Shown piece after piece: positions 56,733 through 63,575 of a DNA stretch of 64,000 bases. Every line of letters begins with the position of its first letter. The stretch's first letter is position 1. Source of the DNA: Spartobacteria bacterium. GTDB lineage: Bacteria > Verrucomicrobiota > Verrucomicrobiia > Chthoniobacterales > UBA10450. The position numbers were made by a program, and so were the translations under genes. The notes under the pieces were generated by a model that was not told the origin of the DNA, did not search any database, and saw only the letters and a program-made list of their open reading frames with translations. The stretch is taken from NCBI GenBank assembly GCA_003134785.1, contig PLCN01000011.1, forward strand, positions 62,001 through 126,000, given 5' to 3'.

Positions 56733-59321
56733 ATGGTCCATGACATAAAGTTCGCGCTCCGGCAGCTGTGGAAGGCTCCGGGATTCACCATCGCGGCTGT
56801 GATCGTTCTCGCGCTCGGCATTGGCGCGAATACCGCCGTCTTCAGTCTCGTGCACACAATGTTGTTCGCGCCGCCCGGCTATGCGCGGCCTAACGAAGTC
56901 GTGCAGGTCTTTTCGCAGGACAAGAAGAATCCAAAAACCTTCCGCGGGTTTTCGTATCCGACCTATCGCGATATCCGGGAACAAAACAGCGTCTTTACCG
57001 AGGTGATGGCCTACAACCTGGCCATGATCGGCCTCGGGCAAAAAGGCGACACCCGCCGCGCGTTCGCGGCCACGGTGACCTCGAATTATTTCTCCGTGCT
57101 CGGCGTTCCGCTCGCCCAGGGTCGCGCCTTTTCGGCGGAAGAGGAAACTCCCGGCCACGCTGCGCCGGTGGCGATTGTCAGTTATGGTTACTGGGCGAAG
57201 CACTCCTTCGATCCGGCATTGCTCGGCTCGCCCTTGCTTATCAACGGCCACCCCTTCACGATCGTCGGGATCGCGCCGCGAGGATTCACCGGCCTGATGC
57301 AGGTGATCTCGCCTGAAGTGTGGCTGCCGCTCGGAGTTTACGATCAGGTGGCAAACGATTTTGCGAGCGAGAACACCACGAAGCTGGGCGACCGCGCCGG
57401 ACACCAACTTCTTATTGTCGGACGGCTAAAACCGGGACTGACAGCCGCGACCGCGGAGCCTTCATTAAAGGGGTTGGCGGCCAATTTGGAAAAAGCATTC
57501 CCAGTCGAGCAGAAGGATCAAACCTTCCAGACGACGCCGATCTCGCGCTTTTCCACCAGCACCAGTCCGTCGGGTGAAGGCGGAATATCGAAGCTCGCAC
57601 CGATGCTTCTCGGCATGTCAATCGTGGTTCTGCTGGTGGCATGTCTCAACCTCGCGAACATGTTGCTGGCGCGGGGCACCGCCCGTCGCAAAGAAATTGC
57701 GATTCGTCTCGCGCTCGGCGGCAGCCGTGGCCGCATCGTCCGCCAGCTTCTCACCGAAGGGCTGGTCCTGTCCCTTCTCGGGGGCGCCTGCGGACTCGTT
57801 CTCGGCCTTTGGTCGTCCGATCTTCTCGTGACATCGCTGGGGAAAATGCTCCCGCTCGACATAACCTGGCTGGGCGGACCGAATGCCGCCATTCTGGCCG
57901 CGACTTTCGGTTTTTGCGTGCTCGGCACGATTGGTTTTGCGCTTGGGCCCGCGCTCAAACTTTCGCGCAGTGCTGTCGTGGCGGATCTGAAGGAACAAGC
58001 GGGTGAGGACGTAATCCGGCGCCGCTGGAAATTTCTGCCGCGCAATCCGCTCGTCGTCGTCCAAATAGCGTTTTCACTCGCCCTGCTCACAGCGGCCGCG
58101 CTTTTCATCCGGGGTGCCGGCAAAGCCGCCTCGGTCGACACCGGTCTTCATCCGGGCGCAAGTTTTCTCATCGAAACCGACGCGAGCCTGGCCGGTTACG
58201 AACCGAAACGCGGGCAGGAACTCTATCGAAATCTGAACGAGCGGCTGGCTGCGTTGCCAGGGGTGGAGCGGACGAGCGTTTCCGCCACGATCCCTTTTGG
58301 AATGATCTCGCTGAGCAAAAATGTGCAGCGAGCCGGCTTGCAACCCGCACCCGATGCGAAGCCGGCCACGGCCGCCGAAGGTTTGGCCTTTAGCGCGGCT
58401 TGGAACAGCGTCGGTGCGGACTACTTCACCACGGTTGGATTGCCGATCTTGCGCGGCCGCGCCTTTAATGAAGCCGAGGGGACGCAATCCGGTGGTGCGG
58501 CCGTGGCGATCATTGACGAAGTGCTCGCAAAAAAACTTTGGCCCGAGGGCGACGCGCTCGGACAATTTGTTCAATTTGCGAGTGACAAAGCGCCCAGCGC
58601 GAAAGGGAACGACTCCCGCGTGGGAATGAGCGAAGACCTTAGCGGTGAAATCAAACCCGGTGAAACCATCGAGATTGTTGGCGTTGTGCCCACCACGCGT
58701 CAGGGCCTTTTCGAAAGCGATTCGAACGGTGCAATCTACGTTCCGTTCGGTCGCGGCTTCCAAAGCAACGTTTCCTTCTTCGTCCGGTTTCGCACACTTG
58801 CTCCCGGCAGTGAGACCGCGACCGCCGACTTATTGCGACGCACCGTGCGCGAGGTCGACTCCGCACTCCCGATTCTTTCGCTCAAGACTTTTGCGCAACA
58901 TCTCGACAGCAATTTCCAACTCTGGATCGTGCGCGCGGGCGCGGCGATGTTCTCCGTCTTCGGCGCACTCGCGCTAGGTCTTGCGGTCGTCGGGCTCTAT
59001 GGCGTGAAGGCCTATTCGGTCGCGCGCCGCACCCGCGAGATCGGCATTCGCATGGCGCTGGGCGCACAACGCGGCACGGTTCTGCGGATGTTTCTGCGGG
59101 AAGGTTCGGTCATGCTCGTTTGCGGACTCGTCCTTGGCTTGCTTCTGGCCGCGGGAACCGGAAAAATTCTGAGCGGAATGCTCTACGAAGTCGGCGCGCT
59201 GGATCCGGTCGCGTTCACGGTCGCGCCTGCTCTGCTTGCGGCCGCGGCGATTCTGGCGACGTGGCTTCCCGCCCGACGCGCCACGCGCATCAGCCCGATG
59301 GCGGCATTGCGCACTGAGTAG
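56733..59321 (+). CDS. MacB-like FtsX-type permease, ADOP family
   Basis: The 862-residue protein begins MVHDIKFALRQLWKAPGFT, the typical start of duplicated orphan permeases found in Acidobacteria and related soil bacteria. It has a helix near residue 20-40, MacB periplasmic domain, three helices with RKEIAIRLALGGSRGRIVRQLLTEGL, then a second copy ending with GIRMALGAQRGTVLRMFLREG and the FtsX ending LPARRATRISPMAALRTE. Its ATPase partner is not adjacent; such orphan permeases often lack one. Function unknown, possibly export or sensing. Confidence 0.93.
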   Translation: MVHDIKFALRQLWKAPGFTIAAVIVLALGIGANTAVFSLVHTMLFAPPGYARPNEVVQVFSQDKKNPKTFRGFSYPTYRDIREQNSVFTEVMAYNLAMIGLGQKGDTRRAFAATVTSNYFSVLGVPLAQGRAFSAEEETPGHAAPVAIVSYGYWAKHSFDPALLGSPLLINGHPFTIVGIAPRGFTGLMQVISPEVWLPLGVYDQVANDFASENTTKLGDRAGHQLLIVGRLKPGLTAATAEPSLKGLAANLEKAFPVEQKDQTFQTTPISRFSTSTSPSGEGGISKLAPMLLGMSIVVLLVACLNLANMLLARGTARRKEIAIRLALGGSRGRIVRQLLTEGLVLSLLGGACGLVLGLWSSDLLVTSLGKMLPLDITWLGGPNAAILAATFGFCVLGTIGFALGPALKLSRSAVVADLKEQAGEDVIRRRWKFLPRNPLVVVQIAFSLALLTAAALFIRGAGKAASVDTGLHPGASFLIETDASLAGYEPKRGQELYRNLNERLAALPGVERTSVSATIPFGMISLSKNVQRAGLQPAPDAKPATAAEGLAFSAAWNSVGADYFTTVGLPILRGRAFNEAEGTQSGGAAVAIIDEVLAKKLWPEGDALGQFVQFASDKAPSAKGNDSRVGMSEDLSGEIKPGETIEIVGVVPTTRQGLFESDSNGAIYVPFGRGFQSNVSFFVRFRTLAPGSETATADLLRRTVREVDSALPILSLKTFAQHLDSNFQLWIVRAGAAMFSVFGALALGLAVVGLYGVKAYSVARRTREIGIRMALGAQRGTVLRMFLREGSVMLVCGLVLGLLLAAGTGKILSGMLYEVGALDPVAFTVAPALLAAAAILATWLPARRATRISPMAALRTE

Positions 59322-59410: not shown

Positions 59411-60079
59411 ATGTCTGGAAGGGCTGTGCGCTGCGCATCGTCCATTCTCATTTTGGCTCTTGGCCTCGCTGCTGGATCCGCTCGGGCCCAGGTCGTAATC
59501 GAAGGCACCGTCACGCTGCCAAAACCGAGCTTCGATCGCGGGCTTAACCAGCGCTATTCGACCACCTCGGACGTGGCGATGGCCCCGACCAATCCGCCGG
59601 CGGCGGTGGTCTATCTCGAAGGCGATTTTCGTCCAAAGCCGACCGACGTTCCAAAATCGCCGGCGCAAGTGGCGCAGAAGAACATCGCGTTCGCGCCCGA
59701 TCTTCTGCCGGTCCTGGTCGGCACCGCAGTCGAGTTCCCGAACATGGACGACACTTACCACAATGTTTTTTCCTACTCGAAGACGAAACGGTTCGACCTC
59801 GGCCGCTATCGCAAAGACGAAAAATCTACGACGGTCGTTTTCGACAAACCGGGGGCGGTCACGATTCACTGCGAAATTCATGAGAGAATGCGCGGGACCA
59901 TTCTCGTCCTCGAGACGCCGCATTTTCAGAAAACGGACACTGCGGGCCGATACCGTCTCGAACATCTCCCGGCCGGCAATTACGTGCTGAAAGCGTGGGT
60001 GGCCGGCGACGACATCCGTCAGCGTCCCGTGGAGTTGAAAACCGGCATGACTCTGCATGTCGATTTTCCAGCGAGGTAA
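59411..60079 (+). CDS. Secreted cupredoxin-like protein
   Basis: The 222-residue product has a signal peptide (ending GSARA near residue 26) and a plastocyanin-like core: DDTYHNVFSYS gives the first His, and VTIHCEIHERMRG gives Cys-x-x-His-x-x-x-Met-type copper ligands. A C-terminal carboxypeptidase-like beta module follows (GRYRLEHLPAGNYVLKAW). It likely binds copper in the periplasm and carries electrons or metal. The histidine kinase gene follows in the same frame, with only a few bases between. Confidence 0.88.
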   Translation: MSGRAVRCASSILILALGLAAGSARAQVVIEGTVTLPKPSFDRGLNQRYSTTSDVAMAPTNPPAAVVYLEGDFRPKPTDVPKSPAQVAQKNIAFAPDLLPVLVGTAVEFPNMDDTYHNVFSYSKTKRFDLGRYRKDEKSTTVVFDKPGAVTIHCEIHERMRGTILVLETPHFQKTDTAGRYRLEHLPAGNYVLKAWVAGDDIRQRPVELKTGMTLHVDFPAR

Positions 60080-60133
60080 CCACCCATTAATTTCAAATAT
60101 AGTGTTACGGGAGCGCGCAGCTTCCGGGCGAAG

Positions 60134-62326
60134 TTGCTCTTAGCGATGATGCTCGTGGTCCTCGCGGTGACGACTGCGACCGTCTACCTCGCGGAAAAAA
60201 ATCGGCGCGCGAATCATCAGCTCCTGCTCGATGCGCAATTTCAAAATCGCGTCCAATCGTTCCTGAAAATTCAGGAGGCGCAATCAGAGGTCATCACCGA
60301 GAAATGTCTCGCGCTTTCACATGCGGTCAGGCTCCGCGCGGCGCTCGAGGAACGAGACGTTGATGACTTGTATCGAAACGCGCTGACGGAACTCGAAGGA
60401 ATATTGGACCGCTCCGGCACGTCGACCGAGTCCACACCCGACGGCATGCGCGCGTCGTTCTTTCGGTTCCTGGATGCGGACGGCCTCGTCTTGTCGCCTG
60501 AAAATCTTCCGGTCGGGATGACGGACCAGACGTCAATTCAGGAGGCGCTGTCCAGCATGGGCAAAGTGCTGCGCGAAGAGGATGATCAGGCGGTCGGCTT
60601 CATCGCTCTCGCTCGCGGAAATCGGCCCTCGGCTTTGTGCAAAGTGGTGCTGACAAAAATTCGCGATCGGTCCGGTAAGAGTTTGGGCGCGCTGGTGGTC
60701 GGCTTCCCCGTCAGCCATCTCGAGGACACGGAAAGCGATCGCGCGGGCGCGATCAAGAGCGGCATCTGGCTTAGCCCGCGCCTCTACATCGACACTTTGA
60801 CCTCGGCAGACCGGCGTCTCGTGGGTGAACGGGTCCGCGTAGCGTCCATCACGGAAACCGCCGGGCATTTTCCGATCGAGCTCGAAAGCGGTCCGCATCT
60901 TCTTTATTTCAAAGCGCTCGATCCGGAAACGCAATTCGCGCCGGCTTATCAGGTCTGCCTCTATCCTCTGGTCACATCGATTCGCGAGGAACAGGCGCTG
61001 CGCTGGAAAATCATCGCCTTCGGGTTCGTCGTTCTTTCCTTCGGGTTTGCGGCCAGTTTGTTCGTGGCCAAAGGGCTGGCCAAGCCGGTCGAGAAAATCG
61101 TGGCCGGTTCGGTGGAGAATCTGACCCGCCGCAAGCAGGCGGAAGATGATTTGCGGGAGAGCAATCGGGAGCTGGAGAAAGCGCTCGCCGAATTGAAGGC
61201 CACGCAACAACAGGTCATTCAGCAGGAGCGTCTCAGCGCCATCGGACAAATGGCCAGCGGCATCGCCCACGATTTCAACAATACGCTCACGCCGATTTTG
61301 GGATTCTCGGAGTTGCTCCTGGAAAATGACGCGTTGCTCGATAACAAGAAAGAGACGCGCCGCTGCCTCGAAATGCTGCGCACTTCGGCCAAGGACGCCG
61401 CCAACGTCGTCAGCCGTCTCCGCGAATTTTATCGCCCCGCCGACACGGATGAGGAATTTCCCGTTGTCGATCTGGCCAAGATCGTCCAACAAGCCGTTTC
61501 ATTGACCGAACCGAAGTGGCGCAGCCAGACGCAGGCGAGAGGATTAACTGTCGAGGTCATCGCGGTAGCGAAAGCGTCTCCCTTTGTCGCCGGCCAGGAA
61601 TCCGCGCTGCGCGAGGTGCTGACCAATCTCATTTTCAACGCCGTTGATGCGATGCCGGCAGGCGGCCGCATTTCACTCGAGACCTCGGCCGAAGGCGACG
61701 ACGCCGTCATTCGCGTCCGCGATACCGGGACCGGCATGACGGAAAGTGTCCGCCAGCGTTGCCTCGAGCCGTTCTTCTCCACGAAAGGCGAGCGCGGCAC
61801 CGGGCTCGGGCTTTCCATGGTTTACGGCATCGTCGAGCGGCATCGCGGCAAATTGGAAATTGAATCCACCGCGGGGGAGGGGACCACCTTCATCATTCGG
61901 CTGCCGCAGGCGGAATCTTCGCCGCTCCAAGCCGCGATCATTCCGGGCCTGAGATCGAAGTCGTCGCTGAATGTTCTCGTGGTGGATGACGAACCTCGCG
62001 TCCTCGAGGTGGTTTCGGCTTATCTGCGCTGCGACGGACATTCCGTTTCCACCGCGTCGAGTGGTCGTGAGGCTCTGGAGAAATTTCGGCGGAACCAGTT
62101 CGATCTCGTCGTTCTCGATCGCGTCATGCCCGAGATGACGGGTGATCAAACGGCGCGTTTTATCAAACAACTGAATCAGGACATCCCGGTCATCATGCTC
62201 ACGGGCTTCGGCGCTTTGATCGAAGTTACGGGATCACAACCGGAAGCCGTCGATGTCGTCCTCAGCAAACCGGTCACGCTCGACGCGTTGCGCCAGACCA
62301 TCGGCAAACTTCTCCATGCGGCGTAA
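60134..62326 (+). CDS. Hybrid histidine kinase/response regulator
   Basis: As read from a TTG, the 730-residue protein has a helix (residues 1-20), a periplasmic sensor region (about 25-285), a second helix near 295-312, then HisKA with phospho-His in MASGIAHDFNNTLTPILG, HATPase with ISLETSAEGDD and GTGLGLSMVYGIVERH, and a C-terminal receiver (LVVDDEPRVLEVVSA, Asp in LVVLDRVMPEM). The frame is open upstream to the cupredoxin stop at 60077-60079, with no ATG or GTG; an ATT at 60086 would add a basic leader (NFKYSVTGARSFRAK). So the start is uncertain. The outer-membrane barrel gene overlaps its end. Confidence 0.9.
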   Translation: MLLAMMLVVLAVTTATVYLAEKNRRANHQLLLDAQFQNRVQSFLKIQEAQSEVITEKCLALSHAVRLRAALEERDVDDLYRNALTELEGILDRSGTSTESTPDGMRASFFRFLDADGLVLSPENLPVGMTDQTSIQEALSSMGKVLREEDDQAVGFIALARGNRPSALCKVVLTKIRDRSGKSLGALVVGFPVSHLEDTESDRAGAIKSGIWLSPRLYIDTLTSADRRLVGERVRVASITETAGHFPIELESGPHLLYFKALDPETQFAPAYQVCLYPLVTSIREEQALRWKIIAFGFVVLSFGFAASLFVAKGLAKPVEKIVAGSVENLTRRKQAEDDLRESNRELEKALAELKATQQQVIQQERLSAIGQMASGIAHDFNNTLTPILGFSELLLENDALLDNKKETRRCLEMLRTSAKDAANVVSRLREFYRPADTDEEFPVVDLAKIVQQAVSLTEPKWRSQTQARGLTVEVIAVAKASPFVAGQESALREVLTNLIFNAVDAMPAGGRISLETSAEGDDAVIRVRDTGTGMTESVRQRCLEPFFSTKGERGTGLGLSMVYGIVERHRGKLEIESTAGEGTTFIIRLPQAESSPLQAAIIPGLRSKSSLNVLVVDDEPRVLEVVSAYLRCDGHSVSTASSGREALEKFRRNQFDLVVLDRVMPEMTGDQTARFIKQLNQDIPVIMLTGFGALIEVTGSQPEAVDVVLSKPVTLDALRQTIGKLLHAA

Positions 62327-63575
62327 TTCTGCCATCTTCGTTCGCCTCTTCCGCTGGCCCGCGCCGATCCTTGCCTTAATTCTGACGAGCTGCGTCATCG
62401 CCCGCGCTGATTCCATCGAAAAAATTCACGACGCGCTTTCCGTAAGTGATCCGCAGAATCGTTTTAATCTGCAGTTCAGCGGACTGGTCGATCTTGAAGG
62501 CTATTTCATCGATCAACCCACAGCCGCCCTCATTTTCAGCGAAAGGAATTTTCTCTTTAATCCGCGACTGACTTTGTTCGTCGATGCTCAGATCGGGACG
62601 AAGATATACGTCTTCGCCCAAACACGCGTGGACCGCGGCTTCGATCCGAGCGACGACGGCGCCCAGATCAGGTTGGATGAGTATTTTGTCCGCTACAGTC
62701 CGGCGAAGACAGTCAACGTTCAGATCGGACAATTCGCCACCGTCGTCGGCAACTGGGTCTCGCGGCATGACTCATGGCAAAACCCGTTCATCAATGCGCC
62801 GTTGCCTTACGAAAATCTGACCGGCCTTTGGGACACCGGTGCGCCGGACGACGCCGACGACGTTCTGGAATGGGGCCACGTCGGGGAATACGACAACGGC
62901 GACTACTCCGACAAGTACGCGCGCATCCCGATCATCTGGGGACCGAGCTACGCCAGCGGGATCGCGGTCTCCGGTTCTGTCGGTCGATTCGATTACGCCG
63001 CGGAAATGAAAAACGCGGCGCTCGCCTCGCGACCTGATTCCTGGAGCATCACTCAAACCGGTTTCGAATATCCCACGTTCAACAGCCGCGTCGGATTTCG
63101 TCCGAATGAAATGTGGAACGTCGGCTTTTCCACCAGCGCCGGTCCCTATCTCGTCTCCGAAGCCGCGCCGAGTCTGCCGGTCGGCCGGAACATCGGCGAC
63201 TATCGTGAGTTCGTGCTGGCGCAGGATCTTGCCTTCGCCTGGCATCATGTCCAATTGTGGGCGGAGTTTTTCGAGACACGCTTTCAGGTGCCTCGCATCG
63301 GCAATGCCGATGTTTTTTCCTACTACTTCGAGGCGAAATACAAAATCACTCCGCAACTTTTCGGGGCGTTGCGCTGGAACCAGCAGATTTTCGGAACCAT
63401 TCGCGATGAGGATGAACGCACGAAATGGGGCAATGATATCTGGCGGATCGACGCCGCGCTCGGCTATCGTTTCACCGATTACTTACAGGGGAAGGTGCAA
63501 TACAGTTTCAGCCATCAAGGCTCTTCTCCGGAAGCCGGACACCTGGTTGGCGTTCAGCTCACGGTGAAGTTCTAG
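62316..63575 (+). CDS. Outer-membrane beta-barrel (porin-like) protein
   Basis: From MRRNSAIFVRLFRW, 11 bases inside the kinase gene, the product has 419 residues with a signal peptide (to ARA near residue 33). The rest shows alternating aromatic/hydrophobic strands with short turns and ends in GVQLTVKF, with the C-terminal Phe typical of outer-membrane barrels. Motifs such as VQIGQFATVVGNWVSRHDSW resemble phosphate-selective porin-like proteins. It may carry a ligand sensed by the kinase. Coupled translation is likely. A start 21 codons upstream is also open. Confidence 0.85.
   Translation: MRRNSAIFVRLFRWPAPILALILTSCVIARADSIEKIHDALSVSDPQNRFNLQFSGLVDLEGYFIDQPTAALIFSERNFLFNPRLTLFVDAQIGTKIYVFAQTRVDRGFDPSDDGAQIRLDEYFVRYSPAKTVNVQIGQFATVVGNWVSRHDSWQNPFINAPLPYENLTGLWDTGAPDDADDVLEWGHVGEYDNGDYSDKYARIPIIWGPSYASGIAVSGSVGRFDYAAEMKNAALASRPDSWSITQTGFEYPTFNSRVGFRPNEMWNVGFSTSAGPYLVSEAAPSLPVGRNIGDYREFVLAQDLAFAWHHVQLWAEFFETRFQVPRIGNADVFSYYFEAKYKITPQLFGALRWNQQIFGTIRDEDERTKWGNDIWRIDAALGYRFTDYLQGKVQYSFSHQGSSPEAGHLVGVQLTVKF

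Follow-up and report, generated by a model that had tools for sequence, protein, structure and literature searches.

Two-component systems in which a periplasmic accessory protein accompanies the sensor kinase include LuxP-LuxQ and TorT-TorS, and the Sco-type copper protein SenC/PrrC has been proposed to pass redox information to the RegB/PrrB kinase. Blue-copper proteins are textbook electron carriers. In Vibrio cholerae, the periplasmic protein DbfQ binds the sensory domain of its kinase directly (PMC12714742), and azurin and OprC have been put forward as a copper uptake system of Pseudomonas aeruginosa (PMC6907878), although the interaction between the two is disputed (PMC8610252).

We analyzed a window of 64,000 nucleotides (the whole stretch of DNA under study) from a Spartobacteria bacterium, in which a cupredoxin gene, a hybrid histidine kinase gene and a barrel gene follow one another consecutively on the + strand. 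The features of this locus are:

59411-60079, + strand: cupredoxin gene (Pfam, alignments, PDB profile matches)
59759-59761, + strand: copper ligand His117 (in DDTYHN), invariant in 111/111 distinct homologues
59870-59890, + strand: copper ligands Cys154, His157 and Met160 (C-x2-H-x2-M), invariant in 111/111; amicyanin match
60073-60088, + strand: ribosome-binding-like GAGGT, then the ATT with which the kinase probably starts (start-region comparison)
60086-62326, + strand: hybrid sensor histidine kinase gene (Pfam, orthologues)
60185-60970, + strand: predicted periplasmic dCache sensor region, flanked by two membrane helices (AlphaFold2, Foldseek, homology to dCache_3-bearing partners)
61244-61435, + strand: HisKA domain, phospho-acceptor His in IAHDFNN (Pfam, motif check)
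61595-61912, + strand: HATPase_c domain (Pfam)
61973-62302, + strand: receiver domain with acidic pocket VVDDE, Asp in VLDRVMP and Lys in LSKPV intact (Pfam, motif check)
62316-63575, + strand: porin-like barrel gene (sequence, AlphaFold2, Foldseek)

The locus resembles DbfQ-DbfRS, LuxP-LuxQ and TorT-TorS in that a predicted periplasmic protein is encoded beside a sensor kinase, but differs from all three in that this protein is a blue-copper protein, a barrel belongs to the operon, and some relatives have a cyclase in place of the kinase with the order unchanged; here, any contact between the blue-copper protein and the sensor is putative. With CusRS and CopRS the cassette shares the combination of an OmpR-type regulator and a sensor kinase as well as a periplasmic copper theme, but its sensor is of the predicted dCache type, its partners are a cupredoxin and a porin-like barrel, and no efflux or resistance genes were noticed in it. 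As with SenC/PrrC and RegB/PrrB, a periplasmic copper protein is proposed to inform a sensor kinase, but SenC/PrrC has a Sco fold instead of a cupredoxin fold, RegB is not known to have a dCache domain and no barrel is known to take part. Azurin and OprC likewise pair a blue-copper protein with an outer-membrane channel; however, OprC is a TonB-dependent receptor, unlike the porin-like barrel, and azurin-OprC is not known to share an operon with a sensor. A search of the open PMC literature, outside which most subscription journals lie, returned no description of the combination or of the DUF3034/methylamine-utilization neighborhoods discussed below, and within that literature the view of the sequence-only reading, that this is not a described system, is borne out. 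The cassette is apparently an undescribed variant of accessory-protein envelope sensing.

The three genes in the window are one coupled operon. The sequence-only reading had placed the kinase frame directly after the cupredoxin stop and the barrel start inside the kinase gene, and both placements held, with the starts now refined. The kinase frame is already open right after the cupredoxin stop, and the likely start is the ATT at 60086: a GAGGT lies 8 bases 5′ of it, a suitable spacing, and relatives start at the same position with ATT (L085 and L086) or ATG (L084). Plain-kinase relatives start at a GTG that overlaps the cupredoxin stop as GTGA. A TTG at 60134 is an unlikely start, since homologues keep a FRAK segment ahead of the first membrane helix. 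The longest barrel frame opens at ATG 62253, inside the kinase gene and 63 bases upstream of ATG 62316; the latter, with an 11-base overlap with the kinase stop, is most likely the barrel start. This coupling is not a matter of chance, since GTGA or ATGA stop-start overlaps recur at the cupredoxin stop in 70/79 relatives and at the kinase end in 54/61. Directly upstream of the operon (56733-59321) lies a gene for an ADOP-family duplicated permease (759 bits; cut-off 622), and few of the other cassettes have a related permease nearby. A recurring motif upstream of the operon was rejected as an operator, since it corresponds to the end of the coding sequence of an MMPL-like gene located there.

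The cupredoxin matches Pfam Cupredoxin_1/Copper-bind and has a C-terminal CarboxypepD_reg domain; a signal peptide, judged by eye, suggests that it is secreted or periplasmic. It has the His and Cys-x2-4-His-x2-4-Met ligand set of type-1 copper proteins, with all four ligands at amicyanin spacing (His117; Cys154-x2-His157-x2-Met160), and these ligands are kept in every homologue, some of which are just 22% identical to the window protein. This complete and invariant site agrees with the view of the sequence-only reading that this is a copper protein. A PDB profile search identified amicyanins, plastocyanins and the cupredoxin domains of nitrite reductases as its closest solved relatives, but the protein itself was rejected as an amicyanin (19.6 bits against the TIGR02657 cut-off of 110.2). 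Relatives carry the NCBI name "methylamine utilization protein", and no mau genes (for methylamine dehydrogenase) were noticed when the neighborhoods of the loci we read were viewed. We also discounted selenocysteine: the in-frame TGA flagged in many homologues is the terminal stop (seen in L026), and Cys154 is a normal Cys.

The window kinase matches Pfam HisKA, HATPase_c and Response_reg, and has the HisKA His, the HATPase_c domain and the receiver Asp of a hybrid kinase. Its N-terminal 366 residues have no Pfam match, including none to dCache. An AlphaFold2 model of the sensor, built with 51 relatives (mean pLDDT 77), has a long helix, two PAS-like modules and the second membrane helix, and its top Foldseek matches are dCache domains (3lie, 2p7j and 3lid); thus, the region models as a double-Cache domain. 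A redox disulfide in the sensor was considered and set aside: Cys74 is present in 36/51 sequences and Cys291 in 35/51, yet the two do not covary. The core of the kinase shares 47-52% identity with hybrid kinases that lack this sensor, and 72% with a hybrid kinase core without sensor, cupredoxin or barrel (L090:4137-5375; G003:C232), whereas the sensor is about 30-38% identical to the sensors of plain kinases, which indicates a domain exchange.

By sequence, the barrel has only a weak match to the porin-type Pfam family BBP2, and no solved structure proved to be related to it in sequence. When the AlphaFold2 model of the barrel (mean pLDDT 90) was compared with Foldseek, OmpF, OmpC and Omp-Pst porins matched with TM 0.5-0.7, and the protein thus models as a porin-like barrel of the OmpF/OmpC-type fold. 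DUF3034 was rejected as the counterpart of this barrel, with no homology (hhalign probability 1%), although the barrel in loci of the order barrel-cupredoxin-histidine kinase does share its C-terminal half.

The three-gene cassette is real and conserved, and is not peculiar to this genome. Using alignment A1, we found 80 named loci, all in Verrucomicrobiota, and the kinase lies immediately 3′ of the cupredoxin in 79 of them; in the remaining one (L196) cupredoxin and barrel directly adjoin. Wherever the contig has room, the barrel lies 3′ of the kinase, except in L161, in which it is upstream; other loci that our script called as lacking a barrel proved on inspection to be gene-model artefacts. 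The same order, sought in other genomes, was therefore found. One named relative (cupredoxin 85% identical) is a soil Verrucomicrobia bacterium, further relatives belong to Spartobacteria/Chthoniobacterales, Opitutaceae and others, and the linkage is maintained across several orders of the phylum. Contig C25 of the genome from which the window comes bears a further cassette (L081; G000:C25:250000-257500); its kinase is plain, and after the cassette come an OmpR-type regulator and one more kinase.

For an independent count we sampled 288 genomes across the phylum and searched for each component separately; in some cases the named loci overlap the genomes of this sample, such that the two sets are not independent of each other. 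All full-length barrels in these genomes adjoin a cupredoxin (17/17), G019 having a fragment only, compared to 13/19 sensors (6/19 have no adjacent cupredoxin). Thus, the cupredoxin-barrel pair is the tightest bond in the cassette. Furthermore, cupredoxin and barrel occur without an intervening sensor in L112, L113, L196 and L225.

Several observations concern the surroundings of these loci. Sensor-less pairs are also seen in L222 and L223 along with L225, and a long neighboring ORF in L223 and L225 resembles a Ser/Thr kinase by eye. G019:C3:6329-7538 (L130) appears to be a remnant, with an N-terminal cupredoxin fragment directly before the barrel and no kinase. Downstream of several cassettes lie genes for secreted plastocyanin-type Copper-bind proteins (L143:10679-13165, L182:10562-13006, L167:12776-14188, L201:11491-14271 and L198:8682-10160), two of which also contain a fused glucose/sorbosone dehydrogenase (GSDH) domain, and ferritin-like proteins are likewise encoded just 3′ of several cassettes. 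Secreted Ig-like proteins downstream of Opitutaceae cassettes were not accepted into the copper-domain family, which they had joined by single-linkage clustering alone. Distant cupredoxin relatives lie beside genes for heme-copper oxidase subunit I (L234:5213-6085 by Pfam; L126:1465-2181 by eye). Among the recurrent, sequence-clustered neighbors within ~7 kb around the 80 loci, none was recognized as a gene for copper efflux or a copper oxidase (cusCFBA, copA or copB).

Because the cupredoxin-barrel bond is the firmest and the sensor is sometimes used without a cupredoxin, we take seriously a rival reading, in which cupredoxin and barrel are a regulated effector pair that serves copper uptake or, across the outer membrane, periplasmic electron transfer, with the sensor responding to a small dCache ligand and only controlling their expression. 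The barrel's standing as the cupredoxin's most faithful partner and the existence of sensor-less pairs both favor it, as do the distant cupredoxins in cytochrome oxidase clusters (L126 and L234), which point to electron transfer, the secreted Copper-bind, Copper-bind+GSDH and ferritin-like proteins just 3′ of several cassettes, and the azurin-OprC copper uptake proposed in Pseudomonas, in which the interaction is disputed (PMC8610252). We regard this reading as possible, although its probability is clearly below even, and the partners that replace the kinase in other lineages weigh against it.

The hybrid kinase in the window is a minority form; most relatives, including the genome's own second copy, carry a plain kinase. 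Among plain-kinase cassettes with room on both sides, a response regulator adjoins 34/40 (33 by script plus L151, in which the kinase is split), compared to 0/6 of the hybrid-kinase cassettes. Opitutales-type loci have the regulator upstream, many Chthoniobacterales have it downstream, and the regulators examined have Response_reg and Trans_reg_C domains (OmpR-type). In L081, L100 and L183, the regulator may not be part of the cassette, since a second kinase lies beside it. When the kinase type is placed on a tree built from the other parts (sensor, cupredoxin and barrel), a minimum of two changes is required to explain the hybrid state. Since most relatives have a plain kinase, usually with an adjacent OmpR-type regulator, the usual output of the cassette is probably transcriptional, with second messengers in other lineages. 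The sequence-only reading had described a membrane sensor with its own receiver and no DNA-binding output, which is correct for the window kinase but not as a rule, the plain kinase with its regulator being commoner. Likewise, a linked regulator, which that reading had suggested looking for in relatives along with a phosphotransfer protein, was found beside most of the plain kinases but not beside the hybrids.

That reading had also proposed phosphotransfer to an output encoded elsewhere. Such transfer, through an Hpt protein or another kinase to a distant regulator, is compatible with a sensory role for the cupredoxin and is conceivable for the hybrid form, in which the catalytic residues of the receiver are intact and no regulator gene adjoins. 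However, no Hpt protein had a Pfam match in this genome, while control genomes gave matches, and possible alternative roles of the receiver are to tune the kinase or to serve as a phosphate sink. We consider distant phosphotransfer rather unlikely.

The output also changes in kind. In L216 (G242), the cupredoxin is followed by a sensor with HAMP and adenylate/guanylate cyclase domains and then by the barrel, an order repeated with a cyclase in G269 (L111), and cyclase partners were also found in L217, L218, L219, L226, L228, L230 and L232. The partner in L221 is a Ser/Thr kinase with dCache_3, and L220, L229 and L231 have the order barrel-cupredoxin-hybrid kinase. On plasmids of Caballeronia, Comamonas and Novosphingobium, a cupredoxin named "methylamine utilization protein" precedes an EAL-domain protein, which in the two that were scanned has the architecture dCache_3-HAMP-GGDEF-EAL; in most of these plasmids DUF3034 and a truncated hemoglobin accompany the cupredoxin. 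The Pseudomonadota plasmid loci are L131-L133, L135, L239 and L240, several of which join DUF3034, a group 1 truncated hemoglobin, the cupredoxin and an EAL-domain sensor, with no mau genes visible nearby. Like the cassette, these neighborhoods encode a homologous cupredoxin in which the ligands are the same and, after it, a dCache sensor joined to a cytoplasmic output, but they differ in that the output is c-di-GMP turnover, DUF3034 is not homologous to the barrel and the truncated hemoglobin is extra. The sensor regions of the histidine kinases, cyclases and GGDEF-EAL proteins are related by profile comparison (96-98% probability), but because these scores include the membrane helices and were obtained with no unrelated dCache as a negative control, they show that the regions are kin as dCache domains, not that they form a subfamily of their own.

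These exchanges bear on the rivals. If cupredoxin and barrel were merely regulated effectors, the cupredoxin would not be expected to stay beside cyclases and GGDEF-EAL proteins, enzymes with no promoter action of their own. Another alternative is that the locus combines an ordinary two-component system with a porin as regulatory bookkeeping, the cupredoxin having an unrelated housekeeping role. Porins under OmpR-type two-component control are common, which counts for this view; in contrast, the tight translational coupling, the linkage across several Verrucomicrobiota orders and the analogous arrangements in Pseudomonadota all argue against it, and we judge it improbable.

We tentatively propose, as a reading that falls a little short of even probability, that the operon is a modular envelope-signaling cassette that takes its input from the cupredoxin, through its copper or redox state, and exchanges its outputs. 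The outer-membrane barrel and the periplasmic blue-copper protein would cooperate with the dCache membrane sensor, the barrel probably admitting copper species, or a reductant or oxidant, that act on the cupredoxin. Metal import, which the sequence-only reading had suggested together with sensing, is conceivable. The signal would enter through the cupredoxin, which would dock differently on the dCache domain depending on its copper loading or redox state, and this docking would determine how active the cytoplasmic output is. That output is a HisKA-HATPase kinase with a built-in receiver in the window. Relatives mostly have a plain kinase, as a rule accompanied by a DNA-binding regulator of the OmpR type, or else an adenylate/guanylate cyclase, and the output of wider relatives is a Ser/Thr kinase or a GGDEF-EAL protein. 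We infer the cupredoxin-sensor contact, the identity of the signal and the role of the barrel; the cupredoxin is taken as the input because a partner that is retained while the output changes is what is expected of an input component. As counterpoints to this input model, 6 of 19 sensors in the 288 genomes have no adjacent cupredoxin, and cupredoxin-barrel loci exist without a sensor (L112, L113, L196 and L225). The cytochrome oxidase neighbors (L126 and L234) and the downstream copper-domain or copper-domain/GSDH proteins are compatible with a redox theme. The wider generalization, that there is a class of signaling systems in which the copper/redox state of a blue-copper protein serves as the dCache ligand, an outer-membrane channel as the gate, and the output is interchangeable (phosphorelay, cyclic nucleotide, Ser/Thr phosphorylation or c-di-GMP), is speculative and, in our estimate, doubtful.

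A cassette that locks a blue-copper protein to a sensor with exchanged outputs would mean that blue-copper proteins can also act in sensing. Soil Verrucomicrobiota carry the family widely, and since one of its carriers, Chthoniobacter flavus Ellin428, is in culture, the role is testable. Furthermore, correcting the label "methylamine utilization protein" in Pseudomonadota would point many genes to signaling.
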